Shown here: piece by piece, positions 7,014 to 56,745 of the stretch | Position numbering within the stretch: position 1 is the stretch's first letter | Layout: each line of letters begins with the position of its first letter | Source of the DNA: Flammulina velutipes | Taxonomy: Eukaryota; Basidiomycota; Agaricomycetes; Agaricales; Physalacriaceae | DNA: 64,000 nucleotides | Assembly (NCBI GenBank): GCA_011800155.1 | Contig: CM022378.1 | Coordinates: forward strand, 124,001 to 188,000 | Reading direction: 5' to 3' | Translations under genes and position numbers: made by a program | Notes under the pieces: model-generated | What the model saw: the letters and a program-made list of their open reading frames with translations, nothing else | What the model was told of the DNA's origin: nothing | Databases searched by the model: none

Positions 7014-9033
7014 TAGCAAAGTGAACAGCCAGCTGAGCAGTCCTAGTGAAGTGTGGATGGCATGTCATGGCGTGCAGTGCGAGACCTTGCCAGCAAATTG
7101 AACAGTCAGCTGAGCAGTCCTAGGGAAGCGTAGATGTCATGGCGTGCGGTGCCAGACCTTGCCAGCAAACTGAACACTCAGCTGAGCAGTACTAGTGAAG
7201 CGCAGATGTCATGGCGTCCAGTGCCAGACCTTGCCAGCAAACTGAACAGTCAGCTGAGCAGTCCTAGTGAAGCGCAGATGTCATGGCGTGCGGTGCCAGA
7301 CCTTGCCAGCAGACTGAACAGTCAGCTGAGCAGTCCTAGTGAAGTGCAGATGTCATGGCGTCCAGTGCCAGACCTTGCCAGCAAACTGAACAGTCAGCTG
7401 AGCAGTCCTAGGGAAGCGTAGATGTCATGGCGTGCGGTGCCAGACCTTGCCAGCAAATTGAACAGTCAGCTGAGCAGTCCTAGGGAAGCGTAGATGTCAT
7501 GGCGTGCGGTGCCAGACCTTGCCAGCAAATTGAACACTCAGCTGAGCAGTCCTAGTGAAGCGCAGATGTCATGGCGTGCGGTGCCAGACCTTGCCAGCAA
7601 ACTGAACACTCAGCTGAGCAGTACTAGTGAAGCGCAGATGTCATGGCGTCCAGTGCCAGACCTTGCCAGCAAACTGAACAGTCAGCTGAGCAGTCCTAGT
7701 GAAGCGCAGATGTCATGGCGTGCGGTGCCAGACCTTGCCAGCAGACTGAACAGTCAGCTGAGCAGTCCTAGTGAAGTGCAGATGTCATGGCGTCCAGTGC
7801 CAGACCTTGCCAGCAAACTGAACAGTCAGCTGAGCAGTCCTAGGGAAGCGTAGATGTCATGGCGTGCGGTGCCAGACCTTGCCAGCAAATTGAACAGTCA
7901 GCTGAGCAGTCCTAGTGAAGCGCAGATGTCATGGCGTCCAGTGCCAGACCTTGCCAGCAAACTGAACAGTCAGCTGAGCAGTCCTAGGGAAGCGTAGATG
8001 TCATGGCGTGCGGTGCCAGACCTTGCCAGCAAATTGAACACTCAGCTGAGCAGTCCTAGTGAAGCGCAGATGTCATGGCGTGCGGTGCCAGACCTTGCCA
8101 GCAAACTGAACACTCAGCTGAGCAGTACTAGTGAAGCGTAGATGTCATGGCGTCCAGTGCCAGACCTTGCCAGCAAACTGAACAGTCAGCTGAGCAGTCC
8201 TAGTGAAGCGCAGATGTCATGACGTGCGGTGCCAGACCTTGCCAGCAAACTGAACACTCAGCTGAGCAGTACTAGTGAAGCGTAGATGTCATGGCGTCCA
8301 GTGCCAGACCTTGCCAGCAAACTGAACAGTCAGCTGAGCAGTCCTAGTGAAGCGCAGATGTCATGGCGTGCGGTGCCAGACCTTGCCAGCAAACTGAACA
8401 CTCAGCTGAGCAGTACTAGTGAAGCGTAGATGTCATGGCGTCCAGTGCCAGACCTTGCCAGCAAACTGAACAGTCAGCTGAGCAGTCCTAGGGAAGCGTA
8501 GATGTCATGGCGTGCGGTGCCAGACCTTGCCAGCAAATTGAACACTCAGCTGAGCAGTCCTAGTGAAGCGCAGATGTCATGGCGTGCGGTGCCAGACCTT
8601 GCCAGCAAACTGAACACTCAGCTGAGCAGTACTAGTGAAGCGTAGATGTCATGGCGTCCAGTGCCAGACCTTGCCAGCAAACTGAACAGTCAGCTGAGCA
8701 GTCCTAGTGAAGCGCAGATGTCATGGCGTGCGGTGCCAGACCTTGCCAGCAAACTGAACACTCAGCTGAGCAGTACTAGTGAAGCGTAGATGTCATGGCG
8801 TCCAGTGCCAGACCTTGCCAGCAGACTGAACAGTCAGCTGAGCAGTCCTAGTGAAGTGCAGATGTCATGGCGTCCAGTGCCAGACCTTGCCAGCAGACTG
8901 AACAGTCAGCTGAGCAGTCCTAGTGAAGTGCAGATGTCATGGCGTCCAGTGCCAGACCTTGCCAGCAGACTGAACAGTCAGCTGAGCAGTCCTAGTGAAG
9001 CGTAGATGTCATGGCGTCCAGTGCCAGACCTTG
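7014..9033. repeat. 72-bp minisatellite, about 28 copies
   Basis: A 72-bp unit repeats from about 7014 to 9033. Variants differ mainly at TGCGG/TCCAG in the centre of a dyad (TGGCG-N5-TGCCA), ACT/ATT, and GCGCAG/GCGTAG at the unit end. The unit is 24 codons (starting MSWRPVPDL), but the frequent TAG variant breaks any long frame, so coding is unlikely. Variant order suggests multi-unit blocks duplicated by unequal exchange. The right end abuts the rhodanese exon remnant. Confidence 0.95.
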
Positions 9034-9058
9034 AATGTTGCTAGTTCAAATAGCATAC

Positions 9059-9289
9059 CGGCGCTGGGCTTTGCGTTTTGGGTTTTAGCTCTGCGTAACA
9101 AATAACGGGAGCTTCCCAATCCTGCAAGAGTGAGGCCTTTCGTTCTCCCTCTTCTTTTGATTTGTACTTTGGCGCCGAAGGCGTGGTGGATTCGAAACGC
9201 GCAAACATCAAGGCTGGGCGAGCAGCGATTGCTGCGCGGGCTACCGGACGAAATGCCCCTTTGACGGCGCTGAAAGTCAGGCGAAGCAT
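9059..9289 (-). pseudogene. First exon of a mitochondrial rhodanese, 3' part lost
   Basis: The 77-codon exon begins MLRLTFSAVKGAFRPVARAA, a basic, Ser/Ala-rich mitochondrial presequence. It continues with LLQDWEAPVICYAELKP, which matches the start of the rhodanese (thiosulfate sulfurtransferase) domain of fungal mitochondrial proteins. It ends at a proper GTATGC donor (9058). No second exon follows, because the 72-bp array starts about 25 bp inside the intron on this strand. The catalytic Cys loop and the rest of the domain are therefore absent. The exon itself is undamaged, so the loss may be recent, or the rest may lie beyond the array. The family call comes from the presequence and the short domain start. 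Confidence 0.55.
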
Positions 9290-12585: not shown

Positions 12586-15500
12586 GTGTTCAGCAACTCA
12601 TCCGTCGCATCCGTCATCTCTGAGAACCCAACCAGGGACAGTACATTATCCAGCTACGACTGTAGCACTCAAAGGCCCCCAAAAAAGAGCGCGCGCCTCA
12701 CTCATACACCCACTTTCAACACCGCTCATGCCTTTCCTTCTACACCAACTCCACCCAGTCCAAGCGGAAGCAAACGCAAAATGGCGCCGGTGGACGAGAA
12801 TCAATCTCCTTTGGATCCGCGCCCCATGTCCCCACAACTGTCTCGTCGTGCAACCTCTACGCATGTTCCCATTCCCGTCCCGAGCACAAGCACAACCTCC
12901 GCCGTCACTTCCACTTCCACTGCCACTCCCAGCGCACCATATATCCCTCACTCTACACCATCCGGCCGTCCTTCTCCAACACTCGAGGCCCCGACACCAC
13001 TGTCCACCGAACACCGGCCAAAACTTGTGATGGACTATGCAAATCAGCTCGACCTCCCACTCGCAGTTCCCCTCTACGAGATTTTCTGGGAGCCCAGTGA
13101 GGAAACTGAATCGGAATGGGGCGACGCAGAACCCTCGCATTTTCATAGGCGCGCGATCACCGTAATCGATGTTCTTGGGGGGCGAGAATGTCCATACCCC
13201 GGCCCATATACTTCACCTCTGGTTGCATACACGCTGGGGGCGCGCTGATAGAAGGTCCGAAGAGATGTTCTCTTTGGTGGTAGCTCGACCATACATGAAC
13301 ATTCGGCCTGTACGCCCGGCGCTTACTTCGTTTGCGGTTCAGATGGTGGAGGGGGAAACTTGCTAGACAAGCTCGGAACGCTGTTTTGCCGACATCTGGG
13401 CTTCATCTCCACATACACCAAGAAGAAGCCCTGTAAAGCAAATGTGGCTGTCGTTGACTGGGTCTTGCTCGGCCGCCAAACACATCAAACCGTGACTTCT
13501 ATCCACAAGAGGTGTCAGAACCTTTTATGGAGCCTGCTTTCTATCGTCGCAACACCAGATAGCTGCCAAGATGGCGGTCAAGGCCGTATGCTACGTCCTG
13601 TCGACGCTGTAAATTTTCTTTCTTGCCTATCCGTTCATGCTAACGAAGATGATTATAGGTCGTCACTGAAGCTAACATTCAATCGCTCTCCGCATGCTCG
13701 TCTTGGCCCCATGATGGAAGGTCTGTTCAACACGCATCCTACGATAAATTCCGATACGACTCGCGTGTCGGTAACACCTCATCATATCCCACAATGCTAG
13801 CAGCGCTACATGGTCTCTCGCAACAAGCAGCGGTCGGGACGCTCGACGTCTGTCAAGACCCTGGCCGTTGGTTTTGGATCGTCATCGACAACGTGCAGAA
13901 CTATGTCCGGCGCCGCACTTATCGTATTGGACGTGACAACCAGATGAACATCGGGATGGCGGGAACCGTTTGGGTGGCGCCTCTTTCAGCAGCAGACCCC
14001 AGTGTATTCAATTACGACAAGAAGCAGGAATTCCGTTCCCAGTGCCAACGTGATCAAATCCGTGTCCCGCAGCTTATAAAACTTCTAGACCCAGAGCATG
14101 AGCGACAAGTCTATCCGTACCAATGGCTTTGGGTTCTGGGGCATTACCGTCAAACTCATCTTCCTGCTCTTCAGCTACGCGCCAGTCGTCTTTTGAACGT
14201 CGATGCTTGTATTCAAAAGGTTCCCGATGAAATCACTGAATGTTTTCCCCTTCCTTCCATGACCGGACGCGAGACCCAGATGCCGGAGTTCCTGTCCTGC
14301 TTGCTTGACTTCTTCAAAAGTGCCGGACAGACCAGCGAGCGGTTCCTCAAACGTTTGTTTGGGCTCAGTGGCGTCGGCTTTACCTTCGAGATCTTCCCAC
14401 GCCTGATGCAGGACATGCAGTTCCACGAGTCACCGTTTGACAGCCTCCGTATCATGAATCCTCTTCTTGCATGGTGGCACACCTTTTGGACAAATGATGT
14501 TCGCATCATTGACCGTCATCTCGTTAGCTACGCGAGCCATGATCCTTCTACATACGCTTGGACACTCTGCTGCTAAGATCGGCCGCAAGATACCAAAGGA
14601 TCAAGGCAAATACGACTATAATCAAGGAAGCGAGCTCTTGTATTTCGTGGCAGCTATGCGAATGCTTGACTGTTGGAGGTACGAATGTGACTGAAAAGTG
14701 AACTGCTCTAATATATGCTATTTTAGAATTGACTTATCACGTCGCGCCACGGATGCAGGTTCAGACACATCCACCTGTAACGACCTCTTCGATGTGCTTG
14801 ATGTCCTCAGTGCCGCTTCCAAGTTACCGACTACAGCAGAACTCGAAAATTATGCATTCCACCTGCATGATACTTATACTACGGAGCAGGCCCATTTTCT
14901 GTGCCAGTACCGACTCCGAGAGGGCGCCATTCCCTCTCGCAACTTCTACCCCAACAAATCTCATACCCCCGCTGAGCCTTCTGGAGCAGCTGGATACTGC
15001 ATCCTCATCACCGACAATCTTGCCCCCATCTACGCTTCTGCTGCCCTTCAAAGGAGACAATCAACTCGCGCGATCGAAGGATCTTCTAGGTGAGATCATA
15101 CGCTCTCAAGAAATGGTTTGGGCGGCGGCTAGGGGAGACGTCGATTGAGTGTGGGCTATGCTCTTGATGACGATGTTCTCATTTGCAGGATCGTCGCGCA
15201 AGAAGTATGCCCAGTACATCTTGGAAACCGTCATCAATTTGCATTTCGAATCGACTCCCGAGCTCCGCAAAGCTCTTCTATCAACGTCTGTCGCCAGCCT
15301 TACAGGACTCGAGGGTAGTGACCGAGCAGTTTGCCTCGTGTTTCTGGCGGCTTACCGAGAGGAGCGATGCGCCCTCTCAAGAAATTCCCGAACCTTGCCA
15401 CATGTTGTCGTCCGAGGAGTTAAGAGAGGTGTGCTTGCATAAGGCAGCGGGAGGGCAGGAGGCGCAAAATATTACTAATCTTCGAGTATCTTATCTATCG

Positions 15501-16735: not shown

Positions 16736-19700
16736 CGCGCCTTCGCCACGGATGAGCTCTGGCAGGCGTTGCCAATTCGATCTATGCTGCCAAAACGGTG
16801 CAAAGGATCATCTACGACCCACTGTGAGTACTAGCAGGTGTTGCCAACCCGTTCTTACTGCGCCATTCGATTGCAGGAATGTCCTCTGCTATATATGATG
16901 AAATCTGGCAGCCACGCATGAGCTCTGGCATGCATTGCCAACTCGATCTATGCTGCCGAAACGGTATACAGGATCATCTACTACCCACTGTGAGTACTAG
17001 CAGGTGTTGCCAACCCCGTTCTCACCGCGCCACTCGATTGCAGGTGTGTCCTCTTCCACGCATAAGCTCTGCCAGACGATGCCAACTCGATCTATGCTGC
17101 CGAAACGGTACATAGGATCATCTACGACCCACTGTGAGTACTAGCAGGTGTTGCCAACCCGTTCTTACTGCGCCATTCGATTGCAGGAATGTCCTCTGCT
17201 ATATATGATGAAATCTGGCAGCCACGCATGAGCTCTGGCATGCATTGCCAACTCGATCTATGCTTCCGAAACGGTATACAGGATCATCTACTACCCACTG
17301 TGAGTACTAGCAGGTGTTGCCAACCCCGTTCTCACCGCGCCACTCGATTGCAGGTGTGTCCTCTTCCACGCATAAGCTCTGCCAGACGATGCCAACTCGA
17401 TCTATGCTGCCGAAACGGTACAGAGGATCATCTACGACCCACTGTGAGTACTAGCAGGTGTTGCCAACCCGTTCTTACTGCGCCATTCGATTGCAGGAAT
17501 GTCCTCTGCTATATATGATGAAATCTGGCAGCCACGCATGGGCTCTGGCATGCATTGCCAACTCGATCTCTGCTGCCAAAACGGTGCAAAGGATCATCTA
17601 CGACCCACTGTGAGTACTAGCAGGTGTTGCCAACCCGTTCTTACTGCGCCATTCGATTGCAGGAATGTCCTCTGCTATATATGATGAAATCTGGCAGCCA
17701 CGCATGAGCTCTGGCATGCATTGCCAACTCGATCTATGCTGCCGAAACGGTATACAGGATCATCTACTACCCACTGTGAGTACTAGCAGGTGTTGCCAAC
17801 CCCGTTCTCACCGCGCCACTCGATTGCAGGTGTGTCCTCTTCCACGCATAAGCTCTGCCAGACGATGCCAACTCGATCTATGCTGCCGAAACGGTACATA
17901 GGATCATCTACGACCCACTGTGAGTACTAGCAGGTGTTGCCAACCCGTTCTTACTGCGCCATTCGATTGCAGGAATGTCCTCTGCTATATATGATGAAAT
18001 CTGGCAGCCACGCATGAGCTCTGGCATGCATTGCCAACTCGATCTATGCTGCCGAAACGGTATACAGGATCATCTACTACCCACTGTGAGTACTAGCAGG
18101 TGTTGCCAACCCCGTTCTCACCGCGCCACTCGATTGCAGGTGTGTCCTCTTCCACGCATAAGCTCTGCCAGACGATGCCAACTCGATCTATGCTGCCGAA
18201 ACGGTACAGAGGATCATCTACGACCCACTGTGAGTACTAGCAGGTGTTGCCAACCCGTTCTTACTGCGCCATTCGATTGCAGGAATGTCCTCTGCTATAT
18301 ATGATGAAATCTGGCAGCCACGCATGAGCTCTGGCATGCATTGCCAACTCGATCTATGCTGCCGAAACGGTATACAGGATCATCTACTACCCACTGTGAG
18401 TACTAGCAGGTGTTGCCAACCCCGTTCTCACCGCGCCACTCGATTGCAGGTGTGTCCTCTTCCACGCATAAGCTCTGCCAGACGATGCCAACTCGATCTA
18501 TGCTGCCGAAACGGTACAGAGGATCATCTACGACCCACTGTGAGTACTAGCAGGTGTTGCCAACCCGTTCTTACTGCGCCATTCGATTGCAGGAATGTCC
18601 TCTGCTATATATGATGAAATCTGGCAGCCACGCATGAGCTCTGGCATGCATTGCCAACTCGATCTATGCTGCCGAAACGGTATACAGGATCATCTACTAC
18701 CCACTGTGAGTACTAGCAGGTGTTGCCAACCCCGTTCTCACCGCGCCACTCGATTGCAGGTGTGTCCTCTTCCACGCATAAGCTCTGCCAGACGATGCCA
18801 ACTCGATCTATGCTGCCGAAACGGTACAGAGGATCATCTACGACCCACTGTGAGTACTAGCAGGTGTTGCCAACCCGTTCTTACTGCGCCATTCGATTGC
18901 AGGAATGTCCTCTGCTATATATGATGAAATCTGGCAGCCACGCATGAGCTCTGGCATGCATTGCCAACTCGATCTATGCTTCCGAAACGGTATACAGGAT
19001 CATCTACTACCCACTGTGAGTACTAGCAGGTGTTGCCAACCCCGTTCTCACCGCGCCACTCGATTGCAGGTGTGTCCTCTTCCACGCATAAGCTCTGCCA
19101 GACGATGCCAACTCGATCTATGCTGCCGAAACGGTACAGAGGATCATCTACGACCCACTGTGAGTACTAGCAGGTGTTGCCAACCCGTTCTTACTGCGCC
19201 ATTCGATTGCAGGAATGTCCTCTGCTATATATGATGAAATCTGGCAGCCACGCATGGGCTCTGGCATGCATTGCCAACTCGATCTCTGCTGCCAAAACGG
19301 TGCAAAGGATCATCTACGACCCACTGTGAGTACTAGCAGGTGTTGCCAACCCGTTCTTACTGCGCCATTCGATTGCAGGAATGTCCTCTGCTATATATGA
19401 TGAAATCTGGCAGCCACGCATGAGCTCTGGCATGCATTGCCAACTCGATCTATGCTGCCGAAACGGTATACAGGATCATCTACTACCCACTGTGAGTACT
19501 AGCAGGTGTTGCCAACCCCGTTCTCACCGCGCCACTCGATTGCAGGTGTGTCCTCTTCCACGCATAAGCTCTGCCAGACGATGCCAACTCGATCTATGCT
19601 GCCGAAACGGTACATAGGATCATCTACGACCCACTGTGAGTACTAGCAGGTGTTGCCAACCCGTTCTTACTGCGCCATTCGATTGCAGGAATGTCCTCTG

Positions 19701-22037
19701 CTATATATGATGAAATCTGGCAGCCACGCATGAGCTCTGGCATGCATTGCCAACTCGATCTATGCTGCCGAAACGGTATACAGGATCATCTACTACCCAC
19801 TGTGAGTACTAGCAGGTGTTGCCAACCCCGTTCTCACCGCGCCACTCGATTGCAGGTGTGTCCTCTTCCACGCATAAGCTCTGCCAGACGATGCCAACTC
19901 GATCTATGCTGCCGAAACGGTACATAGGATCATCTACGACCCACTGTGAGTACTAGCAGGTGTTGCCAACCCGTTCTTACTGCGCCATTCGATTGCAGGA
20001 ATGTCCTCTGCTATATATGATGAAATCTGGCAGCCACGCATGAGCTCTGGCATGCATTGCCAACTCGATCTATGCTGCCGAAACGGTATACAGGATCATC
20101 TACTACCCACTGTGAGTACTAGCAGGTGTTGCCAACCCCGTTCTCACCGCGCCACTCGATTGCAGGTGTGTCCTCTTCCACGCATAAGCTCTGCCAGACG
20201 ATGCCAACTCGATCTATGCTGCCGAAACGGTACAGAGGATCATCTACGACCCACTGTGAGTACTAGCAGGTGTTGCCAACCCGTTCTTACTGCGCCATTC
20301 GATTGCAGGAATGTCCTCTGCTATATATGATGAAATCTGGCAGCCACGCATGGGCTCTGGTATGCATTGCCAACTCGATCTATGCTGCCAAAACGGTGCA
20401 AAGGATCATCTACGACCCACTGTGAGTACTAGCAGGTGTTGCCAACCCGTTCTTACTGCGCCATTCGATTGCAGGAATGTCCTCTGCTATATATGATGAA
20501 ATCTGGCAGCCACGCATGAGCTCTGGCATGCATTGCCAACTCGATCTATGCTTCCGAAACGGTATACAGGATCATCTACTACCCACTGTGAGTACTAGCA
20601 GGTGTTGCCAACCCCGTTCTCACCGCGCCACTCGATTGCAGGTGTGTCCTCTTCCACGCATAAGCTCTGCCAGACGATGCCAACTCGATCTATGCTGCCG
20701 AAACGGTACAGAGGATCATCTACGACCCACTGTGAGTACTAGCAGGTGTTGCCAACCCGTTCTTACTGCGCCATTCGATTGCAGGAATGTCCTCTGCTAT
20801 ATATGATGAAATCTGGCAGCCACGCATGAGCTCTGGCATGCATTGCCAACTCGATCTATGCTTCCGAAACGGTATACAGGATCATCTACTACCCACTGTG
20901 AGTACTAGCAGGTGTTGCCAACCCCGTTCTCACCGCGCCACTCGATTGCAGGTGTGTCCTCTTCCACGCATAAGCTCTGCCAGACGATGCCAACTCGATC
21001 TATGCTGCCGAAACGGTACAGAGGATCATCTACTACCCACTGTGAGTACTAGCAGGTGTTGCCAACCCCGTTCTCACCGCGCCACTCGATTGCAGGTGTG
21101 TCCTCTTCCACGCATAAGCTCTGCCAGACGATGCCAACTCGATCTATGCTGCCGAAACGGTACAGAGGATCATCTACGACCCACTGTGAGTACTAGCAGG
21201 TGTTGCCAACCCGTTCTTACTGCGCCATTCGATTGCAGGAATGTCCTCTGCTATATATGATGAAATCTGGCAGCCACGCATGAGCTCTGGCATGCATTGC
21301 CAACTCGATCTATGCTGCCGAAACGGTATACAGGATCATCTACTACCCACTGTGAGTACTAGCAGGTGTTGCCAACCCCGTTCTCACCGCGCCACTCGAT
21401 TGCAGGTGTGTCCTCTTCCACGCATAAGCTCTGCCAGACGATGCCAACTCGATCTATGCTGCCGAAACGGTACAGAGGATCATCTACGACCCACTGTGAG
21501 TACTAGCAGGTGTTGCCAACCCGTTCTTACTGCGCCATTCGATTGCAGGAATGTCCTCTGCTATATATGATGAAATCTGGCAGCCACGCATGAGCTCTGG
21601 CATGCATTGCCAACTCGATCTATGCTGCCGAAACGGTATACAGGATCATCTACTACCCACTGTGAGTACTAGCAGGTGTTGCCAACCCCGTTCTCACCGC
21701 GCCACTCGATTGCAGGTGTGTCCTCTTCCACGCATAAGCTCTGCCAGACGATGCCAACTCGATCTATGCTGCCGAAACGGTACAGAGGATCATCTACGAC
21801 CCACTGTGAGTACTAGCAGGTGTTGCCAACCCGTTCTTACTGCGCCATTCCATTGCAGGAATGTCCTCTGCTATATATGATGAAATCTGGCAGCCACGCA
21901 TGAGCTCTGGCATGCATTGCCAACTCGATCTATGCTGCCGAAACGGTATACAGGATCATCTACTACCCACTGTGAGTACTAGCAGGTGTTGCCAACCCCG
22001 TTCTCACTACGCCACTCGATTGCAGGTGTGTCCTAGG
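16736..22037. repeat. Large satellite with 310/166/454-bp higher-order units
   Basis: Successive copies of the same anchor lie at 16879, 17189, 17499, 17665, 17975, 18285, 18595, 18905, 19215, 19381, 19691, 20001, 20311, 20477, 20787, 21241, 21551 and 21861. Spacing is mostly 310 bp, with 166 (three times) and 454 (once). These equal one 166-bp module plus zero, one or two 144-bp modules. Each 144 bp is 2 x 72, and palindromic TGGCA-N5-TGCCA-like sites fall every 72 bp except one 94-bp step. Each module also holds a 53/54-bp GTGAGT...TTGCAG segment that looks like an intron. Copies are nearly identical, so the array is young or homogenised. The open frames inside it are by-products. Confidence 0.95.
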
Positions 22038-22230
22038 CAGTACAAAACCTCTCTCCACAATAATTTCTGTAGTCATCAGCCTTTGGCACTGCATACCACA
22101 CATCCCAGGCGTCGTCTGGACGTCCAAGCGCACTGTATACTGGGTTGGCACGGAGTGCAAGGGTTCCCAGCCAGCACAAAAATGCCCTCTACAACGATTT
22201 CTGCAGCTAGCACCGTTTGGCACTGCACAT
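22038..22230. repeat. Diverged 1.4 copies of the 134-bp satellite unit
   Basis: Immediately after the last 310-type unit, the sequence matches the 134-bp unit of the array at 54.8 kb. It shows CTCTCCACAATAATTTCTG, CCTTTGGCACTGCA, GTCTGGACGT and TACTGGGTTGGCAC in the same order and spacing, and CTACAACGATTTCTGCAG starts a second copy. Roughly a quarter to a third of positions differ. Orientation is the same as in the 54.8-kb array. Confidence 0.85.
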
Positions 22231-22315: not shown

Positions 22316-23791
22316 TTACATAGCCCCATCTCTCAGGTCAGAGATTGTGGGCAATAGACTCAAACCCCATGGCCATCGCCCAGCTTTATTCATCTGGAGC
22401 TCATCGTATCTCTTTGGATCCTCTACCTCGAGCTGTTTCTCGGTGGAGCACCCTGCATCTACCCAGCGCGCAACACCGCCGGGCATGTACTGTGTGATAG
22501 ACATGCGGACCTCGTCATCGGCTACAGGAGTATTAGAATGGGTCAAAGTAGCAGAGGGAATGGCAATGGTCGCGCCGTGAGGGAATTCAACGAAGATTCC
22601 AAGCTCCCAGACGATGAGAAACCCGTGCTTTGTGGGGTCGTAATTTCCGAGTGCGGTAATAAAACACCAATTGAAGGCAAGGTTCATAACGTCTTGGTGA
22701 GCATGCGTCCAAACCTTGCGTCCAAGATTAAATGCGACGCAGGGGAGAACTGAGCGAGGGAAGTTCATTGAAAGCCCTAGCACCGAGCAGACAGTTTCCG
22801 CGACGTGTTTGACGTATCTGTATAATTTGGGTGCCCAGACCCGCAGTGCACCTTCATAACTGGATGAGCACTAAAGCCACGGCATCGCCTGACAGCTTAC
22901 CGCTTTGAAATGCCATGATTCGCTGAACAGAGGTGTTGGACAGAAGCTCTTCAACGATGGGGGCAGCTTTTCCTGTAACCATTGGCGTGGGCTTTGTCTG
23001 ACCTTGTCCGGCGACAAATCCAGAATTAACTGCAGGGAAGGTCCCACGCTTGTGCCGTGTCTGAGAGGACTCGAATTGGGCGCGGTCGCCAACTTCTTGC
23101 ATCACGTCGAGTACGTTGCTGCAGTCGACTAAGTAGCTCTGACTATCCGGTCGTCCAATGAGGCACATAGCGAAGGTCCCGTTCTGATCCACTACGGGAC
23201 GAGGATTGCTGCGCGATATATCAGCCTCCATCGCAATGAAAGAGGCATCCAAAGCACTCACATCCCCCCCCACTTGATGCGTCTAAGCCCGAGTGCCTCC
23301 AACGAATTAGCATCGTGCTTAGCACCGCGGTTCTTGAACACCGAGGTCTTTGCCCCGTATGCACCCTTTCTGGCAGGAAACCTCACGACGTCCGTGTCGA
23401 CTGTGATTGGGGACTCAGCGAGGTCATGCACCACGGATTTGGCTTGGACACTGGCTTCAGCTTTGGCCCAAAACTCCCTATCCTTCGCCGCCTTTTTGCG
23501 TCGTTTTTTCCCCGCATTTTTACCGGAGGTCGTCGAGTCGGCGGATGAGCTGGTCGACGGTGGGTAATGGCCGATGTCCGGAAGTAAGTCGACATCGTCC
23601 AAGCTGCTGGCAACGTAGCCGTCCCCGCATGCTGACATAGGGAGCTCATTGACATCGCAGGCGTTTTCCCGCTCGACGGCAGCCTTGAGCAGAGGTGAGA
23701 CGTCGACGTCGACGTGGATGGGCTCAACGACCAGGCGTGATTGGCCCTCTGCACCATACAAGGCGCCACTGCGTGTTTTTAAAAAATACAT
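22316..23791 (-). CDS. TET/JBP-like 2-oxoglutarate Fe(II) dioxygenase, 457 aa
   Basis: Exons 23791-23262, 23208-22901 and 22851-22316 join to 458 codons. Intron 1 is 53 nt with GTGAGT and CTGAT. Intron 2 is 49 nt with GTAAGC and an AAG acceptor. The C-terminal domain has the 2OG-Fe(II) oxygenase pattern: HAHQDVMN (HxD at about 331-333), a hydrophobic strand block ending FPHGATIAIPSA, the distal His in LTHSNTPV (about 384) and the 2OG-binding Arg in EVRMSITQY (about 395). Known TET/JBP enzymes oxidise methyl-pyrimidines in DNA; the substrate here is inferred. The N-terminal half has a Lys/Arg-rich stretch (GKKRRKKAAKD). An acceptor-like CTTAG lies just upstream of the start, so another 5' exon is possible. 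All catalytic residues are present. Confidence 0.7.
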
Positions 23792-24712
23792 GCCCCTAAG
23801 CCTTGTGTCAGTGGTTGACTAAACGGGACGGCTGCGGAAAGGGCCGGCGCCATCGTCTGTGCCGCACCTGGGCACGGCACTGCGCTGCACTTCTGTCGCC
23901 TTCAACGCGTCAGATCCTGGGCATGGACCATGCGTCTCGCCTCAGGCGAATAGGCCAGCACAGAGCACGTGCAACCAACAGGCGGCGCGGCGGGCAATGT
24001 TGAGGGAGGGTGTGGAGGGATTGACTTACCCGGCAGCTGCGGGACTTGGCCGTGTAATGCGACGACCTACAAGCGGCGGTGAGATCCCAGCAATAACATC
24101 AACCCGGCTCTGTGGCTGCTGCAGAACCGAAGGGCATGCAACGGATTGTGCGACAAAGCCGACACCATCTTGCTCAACAGCCCTCACCGACGCGTCAGAT
24201 CCGAGGTGTGGACCATACATCTCGTCTCAGGCCGTATCAAACTAGGAGATGCAGCTCGGTCGTCGCGTAATCCACGCATGCCTTGGTCAAGCAGGGGGGC
24301 CGATAAAGCAGGAGTCCACAGGTATAAAACGCACCAGTGGCTTGAACGTACGCCCGCTGAGTTATGCCAGCAGGCCCAGAGGAGCTTGCCCGAGAAACAA
24401 GGCGTGGGTTGGCAGTGGGGGTGGTAAAAAAGAAAAAGCATGTTGAGTTAGGGATGTCACAAGCGTGCACGTGGTGGACGGCGCAAATGGAGATAGGTCT
24501 TTCGGCCCGGATTCCGCAGATTATCCTTACGCCCCCATCTTCTATGCTGCCATCCGGTTATTCCAGATCCTCTGCCTGGTTCGTCCCTCTCCCTGTCTCG
24601 TCGCTCGTTCTCTTATATCCACAACAGGTCGAGGACCATACTCCCCGATCAAGTTGAGACACCGTGGAAATTGGATCGTCCAATCGTCATCACTCTCCTT
24701 TCCTTCGGCAAA
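23792..24712. other. No gene supported
   Basis: Short frames on both strands, none with a recognisable domain. A possible 5' exon of the dioxygenase gene on minus was sought; a GTAAGT donor lies near 24031, but no coding block before it is convincing. A frame open on plus from about 24610 runs into the nucleoplasmin-like gene. Confidence 0.35.
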
Positions 24713-29878: not shown

Positions 29879-29886
29879 TAAGTAGG

Positions 29887-34790: not shown

Positions 34791-35140
34791 TGGTACAATA
34801 ATTTATATCCCCTCCTTCTACAGCAAGAACCACCCCAACTATCATACATCTGAGTGGTGGACTATTGATTTTAACAACATACAATGTGTTTTTAGCTTCC
34901 CAGAATATGTCCCAGGTTGAACACCCTTCAATATAGAGCATGGACATTTGAGAATTAGTACAAAGATCATATCCTCACCATGTACCAAAGGGGTGTATCT
35001 TCGAGGTCTACCTATGACCTGGGCCCCAAGATATCATCTATATGATGTCAAATGACTATTAGAACAGTCCTAAAGATGTAGATATGCGAACCAATGGGTG
35101 TACTTGAGGAGGAAGGGTGAATAAGGGTTCACCTATTATC

Positions 35141-38918: not shown

Positions 38919-39046
38919 TAGCAAGACTACTCATAGACCCTCAAGCTCTGAGTAGAAATGTCGCACAAAATATAGAGTTACCAATGATGCATCCGTCAAA
39001 TACATAGCTTAGCTGTCAGTTGTACAGCATGCTAAATCTACTGTCG

Positions 39047-39765
39047 CATAGGAGTCCTGGCATGCAATGCCAACTCTTGCTACTCGCACATTTCACCCGC
39101 AGGACCTTCCACCAGCACTTAGCAGTCCTGGCGCACGATGCCAACACTCGCCATTTGGGTGAGAGGCTCGGCGGGGACATCTACTGCCGCATAGGAGTCC
39201 TGGCATGCAATGCCAACTCTTGCTACTCGCACATTTCACGCACAGGACCTTCCACCAGCACTTAGCAGTCCTGGCGCACGATGCCAACACTCGCCATTTG
39301 GGTGAGAGGTTCGGCGGGGACATCTACTGTCGCATAGGAGTCCTGGCATGCAATGCCAACTCTTGCTACTCGCACATTTCACCCGCAGGACCTTCCACCA
39401 GCACTTAGCAGTCCTGGCGCACGATGCCAACACTCGCCATATGGGGGAGAGGCTCGGCGGGGACATCTACTGTCGCATAGGAGTCCTGGCATGCAATGCC
39501 AACTCTTGCTACTCGCACATTTCACCCGCAGGACCTTCCACCAGCACTTAGCAGTCCTGGCGCACGATGCCAACACTCGCCATTTGGGTGAGAGGCTCGG
39601 CGGGGACATCTACTGCCGCATAGGAGTCCTGGCATGCAATGCCAACTCTTGCTACTCGCACATTTCATGCACAGGACCATCCACCAGCACTTAGCAGTCC
39701 CGGCGCACGATGCCAACACTCGCCATTTGGGGGAGAGGCTCGGCAGGGACATCTACCGCTGCGCA
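39047..39765. repeat. 143-bp satellite, five copies
   Basis: The unit repeats at 143-bp steps. It consists of two sub-monomers of 71 and 72 bp, each starting with a dyad (TGGCATGCAATGCCA and TGGCGCACGATGCCA) preceded by AGTCC. The first dyad and its next bases (TGGCATGCAATGCCAACTC) differ by one base from the 16.7-kb satellite. Open frames on both strands are by-products. Confidence 0.95.
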
Positions 39766-40093
39766 GGCCGCATGCTATGTAACAATCACACGAGCTCCAA
39801 TCAAGACAGGCAATACACGGCAACTCACACCTCAGTAAATGTTTGCTGCGTCGTTCAAGCCCCTCTGTCAATTGTTACGGACCTTGGACAGCAGGGAATT
39901 ATCAAGGTATCGTGGTGCGAGTGTATTGTAGATGACTGAAGGTGGGTTTGGAATCACTATTGACGGCAGTGGTCCTGATCTTTGAGAGATTTTGAATAAA
40001 CGCCGACGCGGGCGGGACTGGGACAGAATAGTTAGAATTAGTCGGACTTTAGTGCATTTATTGTATCGTCCGACTAGGAATAATTCACTCGTT
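39766..40093. other. No gene seen
   Basis: Unique-looking DNA between the satellite and the 3' end of the nucleoplasmin-like gene on minus. No repeat or domain is seen. Confidence 0.4.
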
Positions 40094-43781: not shown

Positions 43782-45566
43782 ATGTTCGCAAGGAGCCCTC
43801 GAGTTTCGCCCATCTTCCAAGAACCAGACACGTCCTCCAGGAACATCACACCGCTTTCTCGCTCTAGGAGAGCTGCAATGTCGGCTAGTTCCACACCTTT
43901 CAGCTCTGCAGGGAGTGGCGAGCAGCACAGAAATGGGAATCATGTCTCCCGAGGCGCTATGCAACTAGACTTGACGAGGATTGATGATCTAGAGGAACAT
44001 TATCAGGTGCGGTAGATATGTGGGCGAGTCTGAGCCGCCTAACACATTTTCAGAAAACTTACCAAGATGGTCTGGACCTTAGGCGGGACCATACTGTCCT
44101 TCAATCGAATGTGGATCGGCTAGCGCAGAAGATGAACGTGAGCAGCCCCGTTGAACCACATTTGTGCCCTCTGATGACGCCCAGACATCATGTTCTTCCT
44201 TGGAAGGACTCATCCAATCGCAATTCAAAGCGCACGGGGAAGCAAGAGGCGCTGTCGACAATCGTTTGGAATCCTTAGGGCGAGCTCTTGCTTCAGACAG
44301 GGAATTAAACGGTCATAAGTTCGACGAGATTTCTAAGGAAGTAGAGACCTTGGTTTCTGCATGTGTGTCAAAGCGATGTGGTAATTCAGACCGTACCACC
44401 CTGGTCATTACACTCAATGCCTATTTCAGATGGTCTTCCCCGATCGACAGCGGCGCTCAATCAGACGATTAATAACGCGATCGAACACAAGCTCAAAGAA
44501 AGTATCGCCTTGTTAGATGGAAAACTGGACGCAACAACGGCGGCGATGTGGGAGGACATCCGGTCTCATATTCGCGAAGCACAGCACCTGCAGACGGAGA
44601 ACTATGTGAGTAGTCTGGAATTGTGTATATCTACCATCCTAACTACATCAGACGTCTCCGCATGAGCAATACTTCCAGGGTGAGGAGGTAATGTATCATC
44701 AACACCCTATTGCCTTATGTGCCCTCATGTTGGCTATAGGGCGGGCTCCACCCCGAGTCAGACAACTGCCATACGGTATCAAACCTCGAGAAGCGCATTA
44801 CGGAACAGTCGATCACGACCCAGCGACTGGAAGAGCGCACCACGGAGCAGTCGAACGCGATCCAGCGACTTGAGGAGCGCGCCACGGAGCAGTCGAACAC
44901 AATCCAGCAACTCGAGGAGCGCACTACGGAGCAGTCTAACGCAATCCAGCAACTCGAGGAGCGCGCCACGGAGCAGTCGAACGCAATCCAGCAACTCGAG
45001 GAGCGCGCCACGGAGCAGTCGAACACGATCAAGCAACTCAAGGAGCAGTTGAATACGATCCAGCGACCTGAGAAGCCCAGTGATGCGCAACCATTGGTGA
45101 CAACTCAAATAGTCAAGGAGCGCAGTGGACAGGCGCCAGGACTCGGACCCTCCGTTGTAAGTTTGTGATTCTTCAGTGTTTCTGTCACAACACATGTTCG
45201 TCTCAGGTCGCGCAAGGAGGGACAATCAGACATCGCGAAGCATCCCTTCCAGTGAGTTGTCTTGCACTTGCCGGCGCATACCTATTAAAAATGTTGCAGA
45301 TCACGTGGCCGGAGAATATTCAGCGGCCATGGGGTGTAAACTCAAAGCGGTGCCTATTCTTTGCCATGTTGGCTAGCGCCCTCTTCGTGGCGGCGAAAGG
45401 AATACGAAGACATAGGGCTTTGGAGAGCCCGTCTGACCTAGATGCTTTAGAGGGTTTAAATAAGTTGCCGACAGGAAGTGAGCGAACCTTAGGAGAGCTG
45501 AGAGAGTGGCTCGTCGACCTAGGATTGGAATTCGGGGGGCAAGTATATGCGGCTAGTTTAACATAA
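43782..45566 (+). CDS. Long coiled-coil protein with C-terminal membrane anchor, 481 aa
   Basis: Eight exons join in phase: 43782-44006, 44054-44137, 44185-44380, 44430-44605, 44652-44687, 44740-45156, 45207-45251 and 45300-45566. The N-terminal 70 residues are Ser/Arg-rich and disordered. Most of the rest is coiled coil (RRDHTVLQSNVDRLAQKMN, FDEISKEVETLVS). The core is a run of 14-residue repeats (LEERATEQSNAIQQ, two heptads each, about six copies). Near the C terminus one transmembrane segment (CLFFAMLASALFVAA) is followed by a basic patch and about 60 residues. The layout suits a membrane-tethered rod. The family is unknown. It is 0.9 kb from the SUN gene, but the C terminus lacks an obvious KASH-type Pro-rich end. 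Confidence 0.75.
44791..45067 (+). repeat. 42-bp in-frame coding repeat, about six copies
   Basis: Each 42-bp unit (GAGGAGCGCGCCACGGAGCA and the following bases) encodes a 14-residue double heptad. Copies differ by few substitutions, so the rod length is probably variable between strains. The reverse strand is also open (LLELLDCVRLLRGA repeats), which is only a shadow. Confidence 0.9.
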
Positions 45567-49448: not shown

Positions 49449-49713
49449 GTGTGTATCTATGCATAGTCAGTAAGTTCTCTGGTACTTACATGTCCTGCCA
49501 GTATTAGCTCACTGTGTAGTAACCACCCGTCGACACAGCCTGAGGACACAACGGTCGACCAAGTGTTGTGGTAGTACAACTGGGTGGGTAGTCTGGCAGA
49601 AAAAAGGGTACGATGAATATAACAAAAGGAGCAGTGACGATATCGGGTATGAACTTGGAGGAGGAAAGAGGTGACGCAACAAAATTGGACCGAAGTTTTG
49701 TAAACGTAATTAT
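49449..49713. other. No gene seen
   Basis: Short shadow frames only. A CACTGTGTAGTAAC motif at 49510 resembles a CACTA-type terminus, but no inverted partner was found beyond the Tnp2 gene. Confidence 0.3.
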
Positions 49714-50097: not shown

Positions 50098-50232
50098 TTG
50101 GCCGAGCTCGAGGGAAGATTCGAGCTTCCTACCGTAACCTGTCTACTGCACGAATCACTTGGTTCTCTTGGTTTGTCGGGTAGGTGGATTGTAATGGCCA
50201 TCATATCCGTTTAACCCACTTTAACAGGCCTC

Positions 50233-53200
50233 ATGAAGAGCAGGAAGACTGCGCCTATCCTCTGCCAGTGCCAGACTTGCATTTCCCAGACGTACGATGA
50301 TCCCTCTGGGAATGCACATCGGGGAAAACTCTGGCCTCAAAGGGCATATCAGGATCATGTACGCGATTTGAATACCACCGCTCGTACAAAGCTTTTTGCC
50401 AGCCACCTCTCATCCTCCACGGGTTCTGACGACCCATCACCCTCTACCGATTCAGAGGCTCGGGTTGTCAAGCACCATCGCGAGAAAGCCGGCTCTTCTG
50501 CAGACCCTCACAACAATCTTAGCGACGATCTAGTCGCCGTTCAATTAAAATCTGACGGAGATCGCCTCCAGTGCAGTGGTGATGTCCTTGCCGGGTTCGA
50601 GATGGCAGAGATTCGCTTTTTGGCGCCACCTGAACTTGGCTCGACACCTCTAGACCCTTCTGTACCCCCCACCGATCCTCGCCTACAGCTTGATGCCAGC
50701 CACCACGATTCACAGATGATCCAGGACTTTGAAGTCTGGTTATTGGCCGTTGACTCACGAGTCACTGATGGCCTGAAATCAGTGCATGCCGGAAGGCGCG
50801 TTGTTGCTGAGAGAAACAGGCGCATTCTGGAGACTTTATTCCCCAAACTAGCAGAGCTCAAGCAAAGGGCGTATAACCGCCAGCTTGAAATGAACCCTGT
50901 CTACACAGGTGATGCTCTTCCTTTTTCCTCTATAACATAGCGGCTTACGTTGTCCAGCGGAATACTTTCAGCAATACAACCTCAATCTGAATCCGTTGGT
51001 CCTCCTGAGCTACATGCTTGTTGCGACCCTTCAAATCTTTGCCCATGCATCATCCGACCACTGCTCTTTCTTGCTCGCAGGTCTTCGTACTCTCATCCAG
51101 ATTGCACTTAGCTCAGTTGACGCTTCAGGCGACCGCATCGCAGCAATCATAGGCTCCATACCCTCTACCATCCGTGGCGTCACATCTCATCTCACTCCTG
51201 ACCCGGCAACCAAGGCCTTCATTTGCTGTCCACGATGTTACCACCTGTATGAGTTAGGCGATGGTGGCGACAGTACATCATACCCTGAGCACTGCTCACA
51301 CCGTGCTACAGCCACATCCAACGCATGTGGTCGGCGCCTTCGGAGACGTTCCAAGTCGACCAAGTCTTGGGCACCAACACGGGAGTACCTAACTCAAAGT
51401 TTTCGGCACTGGCTTGGGCAACTGTATACGCGCCCAGGTATGGACCGCGTCCTCCACCGCGATCCACGGTCAATGTCTCTCAAGGATGGCGTACTTCGGG
51501 ATATATGGGATGGAGAAATCTTGCGCAATTTTGAAGGCCCCGTCAAAGGCAGACATTTTCTAGACGGTGAAGGCGAGGATCGACTAGTGTTCGGCATAAA
51601 TCAGGATGGATTCAATCCTTTTGGCAACCGCGCAGCTGGCAAAATGGTTTCTGTCGGACCTATCTACCTGGTTTGCTTCAACCTCCCGCCTGACTTGAGG
51701 TACCGACCGGAGAATATATTTCTCGCAGGTGTTATCCCTGGACCTGGAGAACCCTCCAAAGAGCAGATGAATGAGCTACTGCGGCCTCTCATATCCGATC
51801 TGTTAATCAGCTGGAGGGATGGTTTTTTCTTAGACCGGACACCGAATTCGCCTAGTGGACGCCGCGTTCGCTGTGCGCTGGTTCCCATCATTGCAGACCT
51901 CCCTGCTGCACGACGTCTTGCCGGTATTGGATCATACGCTAGCAGCCACTGGTGCTCAGAATGCAATCAAACCATTCAGGATCGTAACAATGTTGACCCC
52001 CTCTCCTTTACTCCGCGTGATAATGCTGCACATCTCAAACATGCGAAGGAGTGGCTGGACGCACAGACAGATCACGAGCGAGAGGAGCTGTATAATGAGC
52101 ATCACATCCGGTGGTCTGCACTTCTCGAGCTGCCTTATTGGGATCCCACACGGTTTATCACCATTGACTCCATGCACGGATTCTACCTTGGCCTATTCCA
52201 TAACCATATCCGCGCAATTTGGGGTATGGATGTCAAGTTCGAGGAAGGACCGGAACAATGCTCTTTTCTGTCTTCAGCAACACCTCGGCCTGATGAAATC
52301 ACTCGTGCTCTCCACAGCATTGCCACGGAAAATGTTGACGTGGCCTGCAATTCGATCAAAGCCCCCGTTTTGCAACACCTCTGTCGGGAACGGGGACTCC
52401 GTTTTAAAGGCACCAAGATGGCATTGGTGCAACGCTTGATCGACTCGGTGCGTATCTTATCCTACCTGGGATTCCACTTCCATTGAGTACATCAGCTCCA
52501 GGCCGGTTCTAAGGATCCCGCTACTGACGAGGGTAGCGGCGCCACTGAGGCATCTAATGCTGGCGCACCTCCCGACAATCCATTGGATGTAAGGCAGTTT
52601 ATTGAAAGATGACATGGCCAATTGACTCCCTTGTAGCCGTTCGATATCGATTCTCTCTTTCGTTACGGCCAGAAGTCTCAGCTGGCAAAGCTGGATCGGC
52701 CTGAGCTTGTTCGTCTATGTGGGCTAAAGATCCCGGGGAACGACTACTCCCAGATGGGCATAGCCGCTCTGGTCAACGCTCTCCAGCAAGCTGTACGCTC
52801 CCTGATTTTCATGGACGATCATCTCTGATTTTGTGTAGCGCAAGGATCTCGGCTACGTCAACGCCAATGGCCATGTGATCAGACCGATGCAGGCGCGTAA
52901 ACCAGTGCAGAAGACGAGACACCTTGGAAAGACAACAGCTGTACTGGGTTCCCAGGTCCTAGCCGAGGTCCGCCGTGACATGTCTAGACGAAATATCCCT
53001 GGTGATGTTGGTCGGACCACTTCTAGGCCGGGAGAGGTCAAGTGGGGCAAGCTGACCGCGGATGAATGGAAGAATCTGTGTGTCATCCACCTTCCATTCA
53101 CGCTGACTCGCCTCTGGGGCGAGTTCAGATACAGCAAGAATGCCGAAGAACAACGCAAATATAAAATGCTTCAAAACTACCTGCATCTGGTCGAAGCCGT

Positions 53201-54259
53201 CTCGTTGGCAACTCAGGATCGCCTCACAGAGGATTCAATCCAACGCTACGAATGCACAATGCAAACCTACCTCAAAGGAGTCCTTGACCTCTACATGGGA
53301 GCTCACATTCTGCCATACCAACATCTCGCTCTGCATTTCGGAGAGCATCTTCGGCGGTGGGGTCCCACAAGATCATGGCGGTGTTTTGCCTTTGAACGGT
53401 ACAATGGCATGCTCCAGAAGACAAATACGAACCGCAAATTTAGTACGTGGTGTAGTTTGTGAAGGCTTTCCAGTTGTGGTCATTCTCATGTACAATCAGG
53501 TGAACTGGAGAAAACGATGTTGCGACAATTTCTTACAACGCTCTGGCAATCAGGCTCTCTACCCACCCTACTGACTCCTGTTGTTACGGCTTATCAGAAC
53601 TACATTGTAGGCGGGAATCAAGGAACATGGACAGAACAGGTTGCACCGTCGGAAGCCCTCCAGGCTAGGAAATCCCAGAAGACCGACACACTAAGCCCAC
53701 AGGAATACACCCTCCTCAAAGAGTGGATTTCAGACCATGAGCCCACATCTCCGATCAAATCCATCTACAACAAGGTGCTTCCCCTCAATAGGGTCAACTA
53801 TCGCAACCGGACGTTCACAGGAAAAGCACATAGCGATTCGACTAGTGCGGTGGTCACCGCCGATGGGGAGGTTGGATACATCAAGAAACTCTTCCAACAC
53901 GCACATACATGGAAGGGGATGGAAATTACGGAGAGGTTCGCGGTGATCGACATTCTTCGTGAGGTGGACGAAAGTTCTGCTGCTTTGGATGTCTATCGTC
54001 TAGCGGGCAACGCGGCGGGAAGGCTTGTCAGGTGTAGATGGAGCAAATCGGTTCTAGTGAGACCACTGGGCCACTTTGCACCGTGCGCACTGACAAGCAT
54101 GCGCGAGACTCACAACAATGAGCCTGTTCTACATGCATTCCCTCTAATGCCAGTGGCGGTAAGTCGAGAGCCTGACGGTGAATAAATTCTGATGTCATTG
54201 TGTAGGATCTGAAGGTCATGTCGCAGGAGCCGTCGTATCTGCGTGAGGTGATTGAGTGA
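50233..54259 (+). CDS. Tnp2-type transposase, intact, 1243 aa
   Basis: Seven exons join in phase with no stop: 50233-50908, 50958-52447, 52496-52588, 52637-52792, 52839-53442, 53500-54158 and 54206-54259. The start has a Cys motif (CQCQTC), and CCPRCYHLY is a second zinc-binding candidate. The Tnp2 (CACTA/EnSpm) core follows: FGINQDGFNPFGNRAAGK, CALVPIIADLPAARRLAGIG, HWCSECNQ, HIRWSALLELPYWDPTRFI, IDSMHGFYLGLFHNHIRAIW (about residue 629). A SAP-like DNA-binding motif (LQHLCRERGLRFKGTKMALV) lies at about 698-722 and a related LDRPELVRLCGLK block further on. The second conserved block is HLALHFGEHLRRWGPTRSW and FERYNGMLQKTNTN. The reading frame is complete, so this copy may be active or recently so. 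Terminal inverted repeats were not found by eye. Confidence 0.85.
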
Positions 54260-54832
54260 CTGTTGATAGCATACATTGTGGAAGAATTAGTGAAATAAAA
54301 ACTCTGGAAAAACATGGAGACCGACTGAATGGCGTCCATTTTGAGCAATCCATTCACACTCAGGACTGCCTCCGGACCCCCCGTATAAGGAAGTGTGGAT
54401 CTGACACATATCTCTGACGTTGTCATTGTGGGACTATAAGAGAAGTGTGAGTTCAAGACCTGTCTATTTCGATAGCGATGGTAGCACCTGATACCACGAC
54501 GATGGCTGATGCTTCGGTACTAGACCTATCTTCACACGTCCTTTTCATGCCACTGTCTGTAGCATACCTGCCACAGGCAGTACAGGCTCTGGGAACGTTG
54601 GGGATAATGTACCCAGGCAGGGGATCTGGTGGTGATGCCAATGAGTCGCCTGTGGCTGTGGGCACAAGTGGGTATATGCAGTGGACATTAACCCTTTCTG
54701 CAGCGACAAAAGAATATTACCGAGTGCTTGAGATCCAGGACAGGGTGCCGCATCCCCGACCAAATGACGCCCATGCTGAACGACGGGCAAGTTGCAGTGT
54801 CTGAAGCTGTGCGTGCTGAAGCTCTGGTGCTA
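54260..54832. other. Spacer between transposase and satellite, one weak ORF
   Basis: 54478-54804 (+) is open for 108 codons with no recognised domain, and a minus-strand frame overlaps it. If the Tnp2 element has a right end, it should lie here; none was recognised. Confidence 0.3.
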
Positions 54833-56540
54833 TTTTTGTAATCACACATAAACCCACTCTCCAGAGTCTCCACGGTGATTTGTGCAGTCAGCAGCCTTTG
54901 GCACTGCACGCCATGGCTCTTGGATGTTGTCTGGACGTTCAGGAGCACCGTAGACTGGGTTGGCACTCTGTGCCAGGGCTCCTAGGCGATACAGATCTAC
55001 TCTCCACGATGATTTGTGCAGTCAGCAGCCTTTGGCACTGCACGCCATGGCTCTTGGATGTTGTCTGGACGTTCAGGAGCACCGTAGACTGGGTTGGCAC
55101 TCTGTGCCAGGGCTCCTAGGCGATACAGATCTACTCTCCACGATGATTTGTGCAGTCAGCAGCCTTTGGCACTGCACGCCATGGCTCTTGGATGTTGTCT
55201 GGACGTTCAGGAGCACCGTAGACTGGGTTGGCACTCTGTGCCAGGGCTCCTAGGCGATACAGATCTACTCTCCACGATGATTTGTGCAGTCAGCAGCCTT
55301 TGGCACTGCACGCCATGGCTCTTGGATGTTGTCTGGACGTTCAGGAGCACCGTAGACTGGGTTGGCACTCTGTGCCAGGGCTCCTAGGCGATACAGATCT
55401 ACTCTCCACGATGATTTGTGCAGTCAGCAGCCTTTGGCACTGCACGCCATGGCTCTTGGATGTTGTCTGGACGTTCAGGAGCACCGTAGACTGGGTTGGC
55501 ACTCTGTGCCAGGGCTCCTAGGCGATACAGATCTACTCTCCACGATGATTTATGCAGTCAGCAGCCTTTGGCACTGCACGCCATGGCTCTTGGATGTTGT
55601 CTGGACGTTCAGTAGCACCGTAGACTGGGTTGGCACTCTGTGCCAGGGCTCCTAGGCGATACAGATCTACTCTCCACGATGATTTATGCAGTCAGCAGCC
55701 TTTGGCACTGCACGCCATGGCTCTTGGATGTTGTCTGGACGTTCAGGAGCACCGTAGACTGGGTTGGCACTCTGTGCCAGGGCTCCTAGGCGATACAGAT
55801 CTACTCTCCACGATGATTTGTGCAGTCAGCAGCCTTTGGCACTGCACGCCATGGCTCTTGGATGTTGTCTGGACGTTCAGGAGCACCGTAGACTGGGTTG
55901 GCACTCTGTGCCAGGGCTCCTAGGCGATACAGATCTACTCTCCACGATGATTTGTGCAGTCAGCAGCCTTTGGCACTGCACGCCATGGCTCTTGGATGTT
56001 GTCTGGACGTTCAGGAGCACCGTAGACTGGGTTGGCACTCTGTGCCAGGGCTCCTAGGCGATACAGATCTACTCTCCACGATGATTTGTGCAGTCAGCAG
56101 CCTTTGGCACTGCACGCCATGGCTCTTGGATGTTGTCTGGACGTTCAGTAGCACCGTAGACTGGGTTGGCACTCTGTGCCAGGGCTCCTAGGCGATACAG
56201 ATCTACTCTCCACGATGATTTATGCAGTCAGCAGCCTTTGGCACTGCACGCCATGGCTCTTGGATGTTGTCTGGACGTTCAGTAGCACCGTAGACTGGGT
56301 TGGCACTCTGTGCCAGGGCTCCTAGGCGATACAGATCTACTCTCCACGATGATTTATGCAGTCAGCAGCCTTTGGCACTGCACGCCATGGCTCTTGGATG
56401 TTGTCTGGACGTTCAGGAGCACCGTAGACTGGGTTGGCACTCTGTGCCAGGGCTCCTAGGCGATACAGATCTACTCTCCACGATGATTTGTGCAGTCAGC
56501 AGCCTTTGGCACTGCACGCCATGGCTCTTGGATGTTGTCT
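54833..56540. repeat. 134-bp satellite, about 12.5 copies
   Basis: Nearly identical 134-bp units. Variation is limited to sites such as TTTGTGCAG/TTTATGCAG and CAGGAGC/CAGTAGC. Each unit has two dyads, TGGCACTGCACGCCA and TGGCACTCTGTGCCA, spaced 62 and 72 bp alternately. Open frames of 97 codons starting every 134 bp are by-products. Confidence 0.95.
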
Positions 56541-56745
56541 GAGTGTCCCTCACTATGTACGAGCACTGGCAAGTGTTGCCAACTCATTCTATGTTGCCAA
56601 AAAGGTTCAAAGGATGATCCACTGCCCATTGTGAATGCTCGCAAGTGTTGCCATCACGCTCTGACTGTGTCATTTGATTGCAGGAGTGTCCCTCGCCATC
56701 GCCACGTATGAGGTCGCAAGTGTTGCCAACTCTGTCACACTGAAG
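56541..56745. repeat. Diverged copies of the 310-type satellite unit
   Basis: After the last 134-bp unit the sequence switches to the 16.7-kb satellite type: GCACTGGCAAGTGTTGCCAA, TCTATGTTGCCAAAAAGGTT, CAAAGGATGATCCACTGCCC, GCAAGTGTTGCCATCACG, TCATTTGATTGCAGGAGTGT. About 1.4 units are present in the same orientation and order, with moderate divergence. Confidence 0.85.

Follow-up and report, generated by a model that had tools for sequence, protein, structure and literature searches.

Why should four tandem arrays that differ in unit length and look unrelated at first carry the same short dyad? The question arises in a 64,000-nt stretch of the Flammulina velutipes genome (GenBank assembly GCA_011800155.1), positions 124001-188000 on the forward strand of contig CM022378.1; this whole stretch is called the window, and the contig is called C13 (2,033,749 bp, with CCCTAA telomere repeats at its start, one of the 23 contigs that make up the 38,124,235 bases of the genome). 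The original prediction placed TGGCR-N5-YGCCA, or close variants of it, in satellites at four positions of the window with a spacing of exactly 72 bp, and proposed a single superfamily held by a dimeric DNA-binding protein in the manner of a CENP-B box. Tandem Repeats Finder (TRF) reported arrays at all four positions, and exact dyads occur 79 times in the window against a mean of 0.41 and a maximum of 3 in 100 dinucleotide shuffles, so a chance origin was rejected. The neighbor distances that had been counted by eye (72; 72, 72, 72, 94; 71, 72; and 62, 72 bp) were reproduced, and 454 bp occurs as one distance between exact dyads. We found seven arrays of one kind of satellite at a single locus; their half-site layout is kept, and each array is homogenized to its own unit. 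To the fuller reading, in which one superfamily of ∼72-bp monomers at C13:73-222 kb has a core bound by a dimeric protein and site-carrying arrays have been favored, we assign a probability of about one half.

The arrays were tiled with one profile made from 14 monomers, which was first built with the 134-bp rows in plus orientation. The array with the 134-bp unit (A134 in Table 1) scored 24.0 bits on the minus strand and 15.2 bits on the plus strand: it consists of the same monomer as the other arrays, on the minus strand, and orientation is part of the reason why the arrays look unrelated at first. The tiling, run after strand correction, placed 300 monomers in the seven arrays, and the non-array DNA of the stretch gave 3 weak profile matches (score of 6 or more). 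Among the 293 distances between neighboring monomers, 72 bp is the commonest (179), followed by 82 (47), 94 (18), 65 (18), 62 (13), 71 (10), and 73 bp (5), with 59, 67, and 83 bp found once each. The predicted 72 bp thus holds as the mode and not as a universal rule, the rest being mainly 62, 65, 71, 82, and 94 bp. Multimeric units of diverged monomers are array-specific (72+72+72+94, 71+72, 72+62, or mixed 82/72), and their subtypes can be distinguished.

Exact dyads number 388 in the genome. Of these, 199 lie in C13:72001-240000 (198 of them inside the seven arrays), and the 189 elsewhere are not above the ∼240 expected when the 0.41 per 64-kb shuffled window is scaled to the genome. Pairs of exact dyads spaced 57-87 bp occur 140 times genome-wide, 81 of them at exactly 72 bp, against 0 in the control range of 88-118 bp; the genome-wide excess around 72 bp that was to be expected from the original prediction is therefore present. 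All 140 pairs are located within 149 kb, at C13:73-222 kb, a placement given by the identical pattern, which counts 140 in C13:72001-240000 alone; the 35 pairs at 73-87 bp all fall at C13:207.9-222.1 kb. A relaxed pattern had 174 forward matches, and among the ∼100 matches listed one was off C13 (on C2). The dyad pattern read backwards occurs 110 times genome-wide and is a poor control, as it contains CpG and the dyad half-sites do not. Three 10-kb samples of fold-back-rich places on C1, C5, and C8 showed no satellite array, and a search of genome contigs with one core pattern returned no relatives. Three viral contigs each have a solitary dyad pair, which we read as chance, and plasmids searched with the 72-bp array alone yielded no relatives. 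We concluded that, as far as exact dyad pairs show, the superfamily is confined to C13:73-222 kb. This confinement contradicts a role at every centromere: the comparison with the CENP-B box is not supported for a genome-wide device (140/140 exact-dyad pairs on C13), and a role on C13 only is possible.

The repeated core is about GTAGGAGTCC-TGGCRNNNNNTGCCA-ACYCTTGCYA in consensus. It is asymmetric and spans ∼37 bp, with TGGCR and TGCCA as inverted half-sites at a distance of 11 bp and a third, TGCYA-like half-site 10 bp downstream. The right half GCCA is intact in 281/300 monomers, the left TGGC in 212/300, and both in 196/300; position +10 is T in all 300, position +4 is divided between G (157) and A (143), and the third half-site at +21 reads GCCA in 111/300 and GCYA in 169/300. 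From the half-site, +4, and +10 counts over the 300 monomers we concluded that the core element is an imperfect, asymmetric dyad whose right half is better kept.

Conservation was measured by column on all but the 2 of 300 monomers that scored below 15, and the 11 subtypes were made of clusters with at least 3 monomers. Within families the mean entropy was 0.11 bits for half-site columns against 0.58 bits over all 72 columns, and between families the half-sites carried 1.84 bits of information against 0.57 in the flanks and 1.08 in the spacer. Random draws of eight columns were as low in entropy as the half-sites in 1.7% of cases for A72, 0.03% for A310, 0% for A143, 0% for A134, and 2.4% for A82. 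Low mutability of non-CpG bases was rejected as the cause, since the half-sites stayed below the non-CpG flank columns in five of five families. In these homogenized, core-anchored copies the half-sites are better kept than other columns, and the expectation that they persist while spacer and flanks drift was borne out; the simple dyad of the original prediction gives way to an imperfect dyad that forms part of a longer asymmetric core, as does a third half-site.

After removal of the dyad, the flanks of A134 and A82 still matched (z of 8.5, 5.3, and 4.7), and so did those of A310 and A143 (z of 3.6). The dyad-free flanks of A72 gave z of 3.3 with A82 and 2.5 with A143, and the best A72-A310 value was 1.4; for A310-A82 the best was 0.1. 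Judged from sequence, common descent beyond the dyad is shown at least for A134 with A82 and for A143 with A310. A single ancestral monomer for all five families would rest on the core and on a chain of pairwise links; 13 of the 48 cross-family subtype pairs reach a z of at least 2. The predicted single superfamily on a 72-bp monomer was in this way supported by tiling, flank matches, and edge monomers, with some families linked clearly by their flanks and others hardly. BLAST identified two pairs of inverted sisters, the 73-kb with the 131-kb array (identity mostly 87-91%) and the 163-kb with the 207-kb array (80-87%); neither pair has common flanks. The right edges of A310 and A134 each hold two monomers with 71-79% identity to the type of the other array. 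These older copies keep the 134 and 310 monomer types and their spacings, which would therefore predate the present arrays. Seven profile matches with a score of at least 9 fell outside the arrays or on the strand opposite to theirs: the four edge monomers, a fifth match at the left edge of the 73-kb array (19.9), and two more (12.1 and 10.8) that we took for chance because shuffled sequence gave 4.4 per shuffle.

Table 1. Arrays, edge monomers, and example core (window positions unless C13 is given; kb labels are C13 positions)
Feature	Position	Strand	Basis and description
A72w (131 kb)	7015-9033	+	TRF (72 bp) and tiling; 28 monomers of 72 bp, 27/27 distances of 72, 26 exact dyads
A310 (140 kb)	16745-22034	+	TRF (310/166/476 + 144 bp) and tiling; 68 monomers, higher-order unit 72+72+72+94, 49 distances of 72 and 18 of 94, 18 exact dyads
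A143w (163 kb)	39036-39767	+	TRF (39036-39756, 143 bp) and tiling; 10 monomers, dimer unit 71+72, 9 exact dyads; sister array at C13:207.5-208.4 kb
A134 (179 kb)	54867-56541	-	TRF (134 bp), profile, and tiling; 25 monomers, dimer unit 72+62
Array outside window (73 kb)	C13:73.3-78.5 kb	inverted	72-bp unit, 76 monomers
Array outside window (207 kb)	C13:207.5-208.4 kb	inverted	143/144-bp unit, 13 monomers
A82, outside window (216 kb)	C13:215.9-222.2 kb		82-bp unit, 80 monomers, mixed 82/72 units
Right edge of A310, two older 134-type monomers	22072-22180	-	Cores 62 bp apart, opposite orientation to A310; profile 23.3 and 16.9; 58/79 and 56/79 identical to 134-type; BLAST 74% over 198 bp
Right edge of A134, two older 310-type monomers	56547-56665	+	Cores 72 bp apart, opposite orientation to A134; profile 30.3 and 17.6; 66/84 and 67/87 identical to 310-type
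Example 47-bp core used in profile	7264-7310	+	Monomer alignment; left half-site 7284-7287, right 7295-7298, third 7305-7308

A sequence-specific protein, acting as a dimer or perhaps as a higher-order complex, may bind the core. We think it reasonable to infer a dimeric DNA-binding protein at the dyad, because it would most simply explain two inverted half-sites set 11 bp apart, a freer spacer between them, and a third half-site 10 bp on. The distances 62, 72, and 82 bp differ by about one helical turn, a hint of phase-keeping, and such ∼10-bp steps would place bound dimers on the same side of the helix. Binding could favor site-carrying arrays through local heterochromatin or through the segregation of chromosome C13; as the immediate role we would favor heterochromatin nucleation at this locus and keep a centromere role separate. 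The seven arrays have a CpG observed/expected ratio of 0.37-0.80, compared with 0.83 and 0.92 for two unrelated arrays (167 and 313 bp) and 0.91 for the remaining sequence, and the low ratio of the seven would fit methylated repeats.

Several observations weigh against a protein-held superfamily. Many sites are imperfect, with the left TGGC intact in 212/300 monomers and the third GCYA in 169/300, and the distances 65, 59, and 67 bp (20/293) break the helical phasing. The homogenized copies are not independent samples, and monomers anchored on the core favor the core in conservation tests. Transitions in CpG context form a minority of the distinct variants within arrays (7/47, 6/32, and 5/29), which weakens the case for methylation. 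Genes recognized by Pfam, apparently outside transposons, lie between the arrays (inositol monophosphatase, DUF6535, OTT_1508, and Sad1/UNC).

A tentative but serious alternative holds that the arrays are local minisatellites with no chromosomal function, whose core is kept by promoting or surviving unequal exchange or replication slippage. Such an origin suits the gathering of all arrays within one 149-kb stretch, their small size (10-80 monomers), the separate amplification of inverted sister arrays, the genes between arrays, and the lack of an array-like counterpart in the three 10-kb samples of other contigs. A simple slippage motif, however, would not need inverted half-sites, a free spacer between them, and a third site, and despite diverged flanks the right half-site and the T at +10 hardly vary between families. 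A neutral self-amplifying core should be the proper null hypothesis. That the arrays mark the acrocentric centromere of C13, as a centromeric or pericentromeric satellite, seems unlikely to us. Higher-order units, old edge monomers, and a conserved box do parallel alpha satellite as treated in sections of PMC8997354; short dyads are described as enriched at several centromeres in portions of the same source and of PMC9070824, and predicted centromeres near the ends of small chromosomes are described for another mushroom in a part of PMC10817607. Yet paired dyads occur on C13 only, the GC content of 5-kb windows is 0.474-0.536 and not low, and the Pfam-recognized genes lie between the arrays. 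A retroelement cluster as centromere marker was rejected as well: of 62 integrase-core matches in the genome 2 are on C13, and none lies in C13:73-240 kb.

We consider it very unlikely that the arrays belong to DNA transposons (Plavaka, DUF6589-type, or TET-bearing) as their subterminal or internal repeats, with a transposase recognizing the dyad. Plavaka/tnp2-type transposase open reading frames (ORFs) do occupy the plus strand at window 50215-54185, one with a SAP domain match; the transposase itself is at 50936-52486, and the later ORFs end at 54185, 0.7 kb before A134. A DUF6589 ORF (13659-14576) likewise precedes A310. The neighbors nevertheless differ between arrays, the sister arrays share no flanks, and no element elsewhere carries paired dyads, since none are found outside C13:73-222 kb. 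A structured RNA, in which the half-sites would form the stem of a transcribed repeat, is hardly credible: positions +4 and +10 in core orientation are A-T or G-T and could pair in RNA, but folding z-scores ranged from -2.5 to +0.9 over both strands of the 11 subtypes, mostly near 0, and changed half-sites (TAGC, TGCC, CGGC, and ACCA) have no compensating partner.

Other features of the region are as follows. Two further arrays stand beside the dyad arrays, each without an exact dyad or a profile match of 9 or more: a 313-bp array (98% matches) at C13:123381-126011, whose right part is window 1-2011, and a 167-bp array (96%) at C13:121645-122458. A Pfam match at E of 0.01 or better was found in 8 of the 30 ORFs tried. 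The Plavaka/tnp2, DUF6589, DUF6535, and OTT_1508 domains of the region are in keeping with a mushroom-forming fungus. The ORFs 22316-23818 and 33078-33551 have motifs that we take to resemble TET/JBP, with no Pfam match and, for 22316-22870, no PDB match; a 488-aa ORF (57011-58477) has no homologue at E of 0.001. HTH_Tnp_Tc5, the CENP-B-type helix-turn-helix, has six matches in the genome, on C3, C5, C6, C8, C10, and C11 and none on C13; a CENP-B-like binder is possible in this species, and would be unlinked to the C13 arrays. A fold-back element of ∼2.8 kb with long inverted arms and a CpG observed/expected ratio of 0.24-0.33 occurs at window 33565-36359 and at C13:84604-87397, 103622-106423, and 192229-202233, the last copy being interrupted by ∼7.2 kb of inserted DNA whose 2330-aa open frame has a weak reverse transcriptase match. 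As a marker of the stretch this element was rejected, as it is dispersed, with at least 41 matches on C1, C5-C10, C12, and C13 (40 of 287 candidates scored). A 5.8S search of the whole genome bearing on a ribosomal DNA spacer origin found nothing (39 of 1442 candidates scored). The window also contains a 42-bp repeat (6.2 copies, 44785-45046) that may be coding, its unit being a multiple of three, and a 21-bp perfect inverted repeat (58953-58973 and 59374-59394, 400 bp apart), possibly the ends of a small element. On C1 a 769-bp tandem duplication (1.9 copies at 90%) lies at 1513702-1516716.

The core was compared with known systems. The nuclear factor I site is TTGGCN5GCCAA, with inverted TGGC and GCCA, and its binders are an animal family; the TGGC-GCCA gap is 5 there and 7 in exact C13 dyads, so the nuclear factor I spacing does not occur in them. 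Hypervariable minisatellites, as Jeffreys reportedly described them in 1985, are different tandem arrays with a common core, scattered over the chromosomes. The C13 arrays share a core in the same way, whereas they occupy a single stretch, are related by descent, and keep a layout of spaced half-sites. Unlike the CENP-B box, the C13 box is an imperfect inverted half-site pair with a third site, and we know of no sequence likeness between the two. Sections of PMC8997354 describe alpha satellite with its CENP-B box as diverged monomers in higher-order units with older, disordered monomers at the edges, and as having a short conserved box in some monomers that is degenerate in others; both traits are common to the C13 arrays. 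The alpha satellite monomer, in contrast, is ∼171 bp against 72 bp here, and the C13 arrays are 0.7-6.3 kb long with genes between them and on one chromosome only. Dyad-rich centromeres, as covered in portions of PMC8997354 and PMC9070824, have inverted repeats of less than 10 bp many times over, a feature they share with C13; the C13 core differs in having one fixed sequence, a fixed spacing, and a third half-site outside the dyad. Titles on fungal or mushroom centromeres, satellites, dyads, minisatellites, and Plavaka contained no description of this element, although an earlier publication is possible.

The C13 satellite combines alpha-satellite-like layering and a conserved box with arrays small enough to assemble and delete. 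With them one could test directly what preserves such a box: a binding protein, chromosome segregation, or nothing more than amplification. If these satellites served C13 as a centromere or as heterochromatin, that would be unusual, given a review's statement that fungi have no satellite centromeres. We regard it as rather improbable that this one chromosome has its centromeric or segregation domain at C13:73-222 kb, with higher-order satellites and a three-half-site box acting like a CENP-B box. If true, F. velutipes would belong to a group reputed to have no satellite centromeres and yet carry one, or a centromere-drive satellite, on a single chromosome, perhaps caught early.

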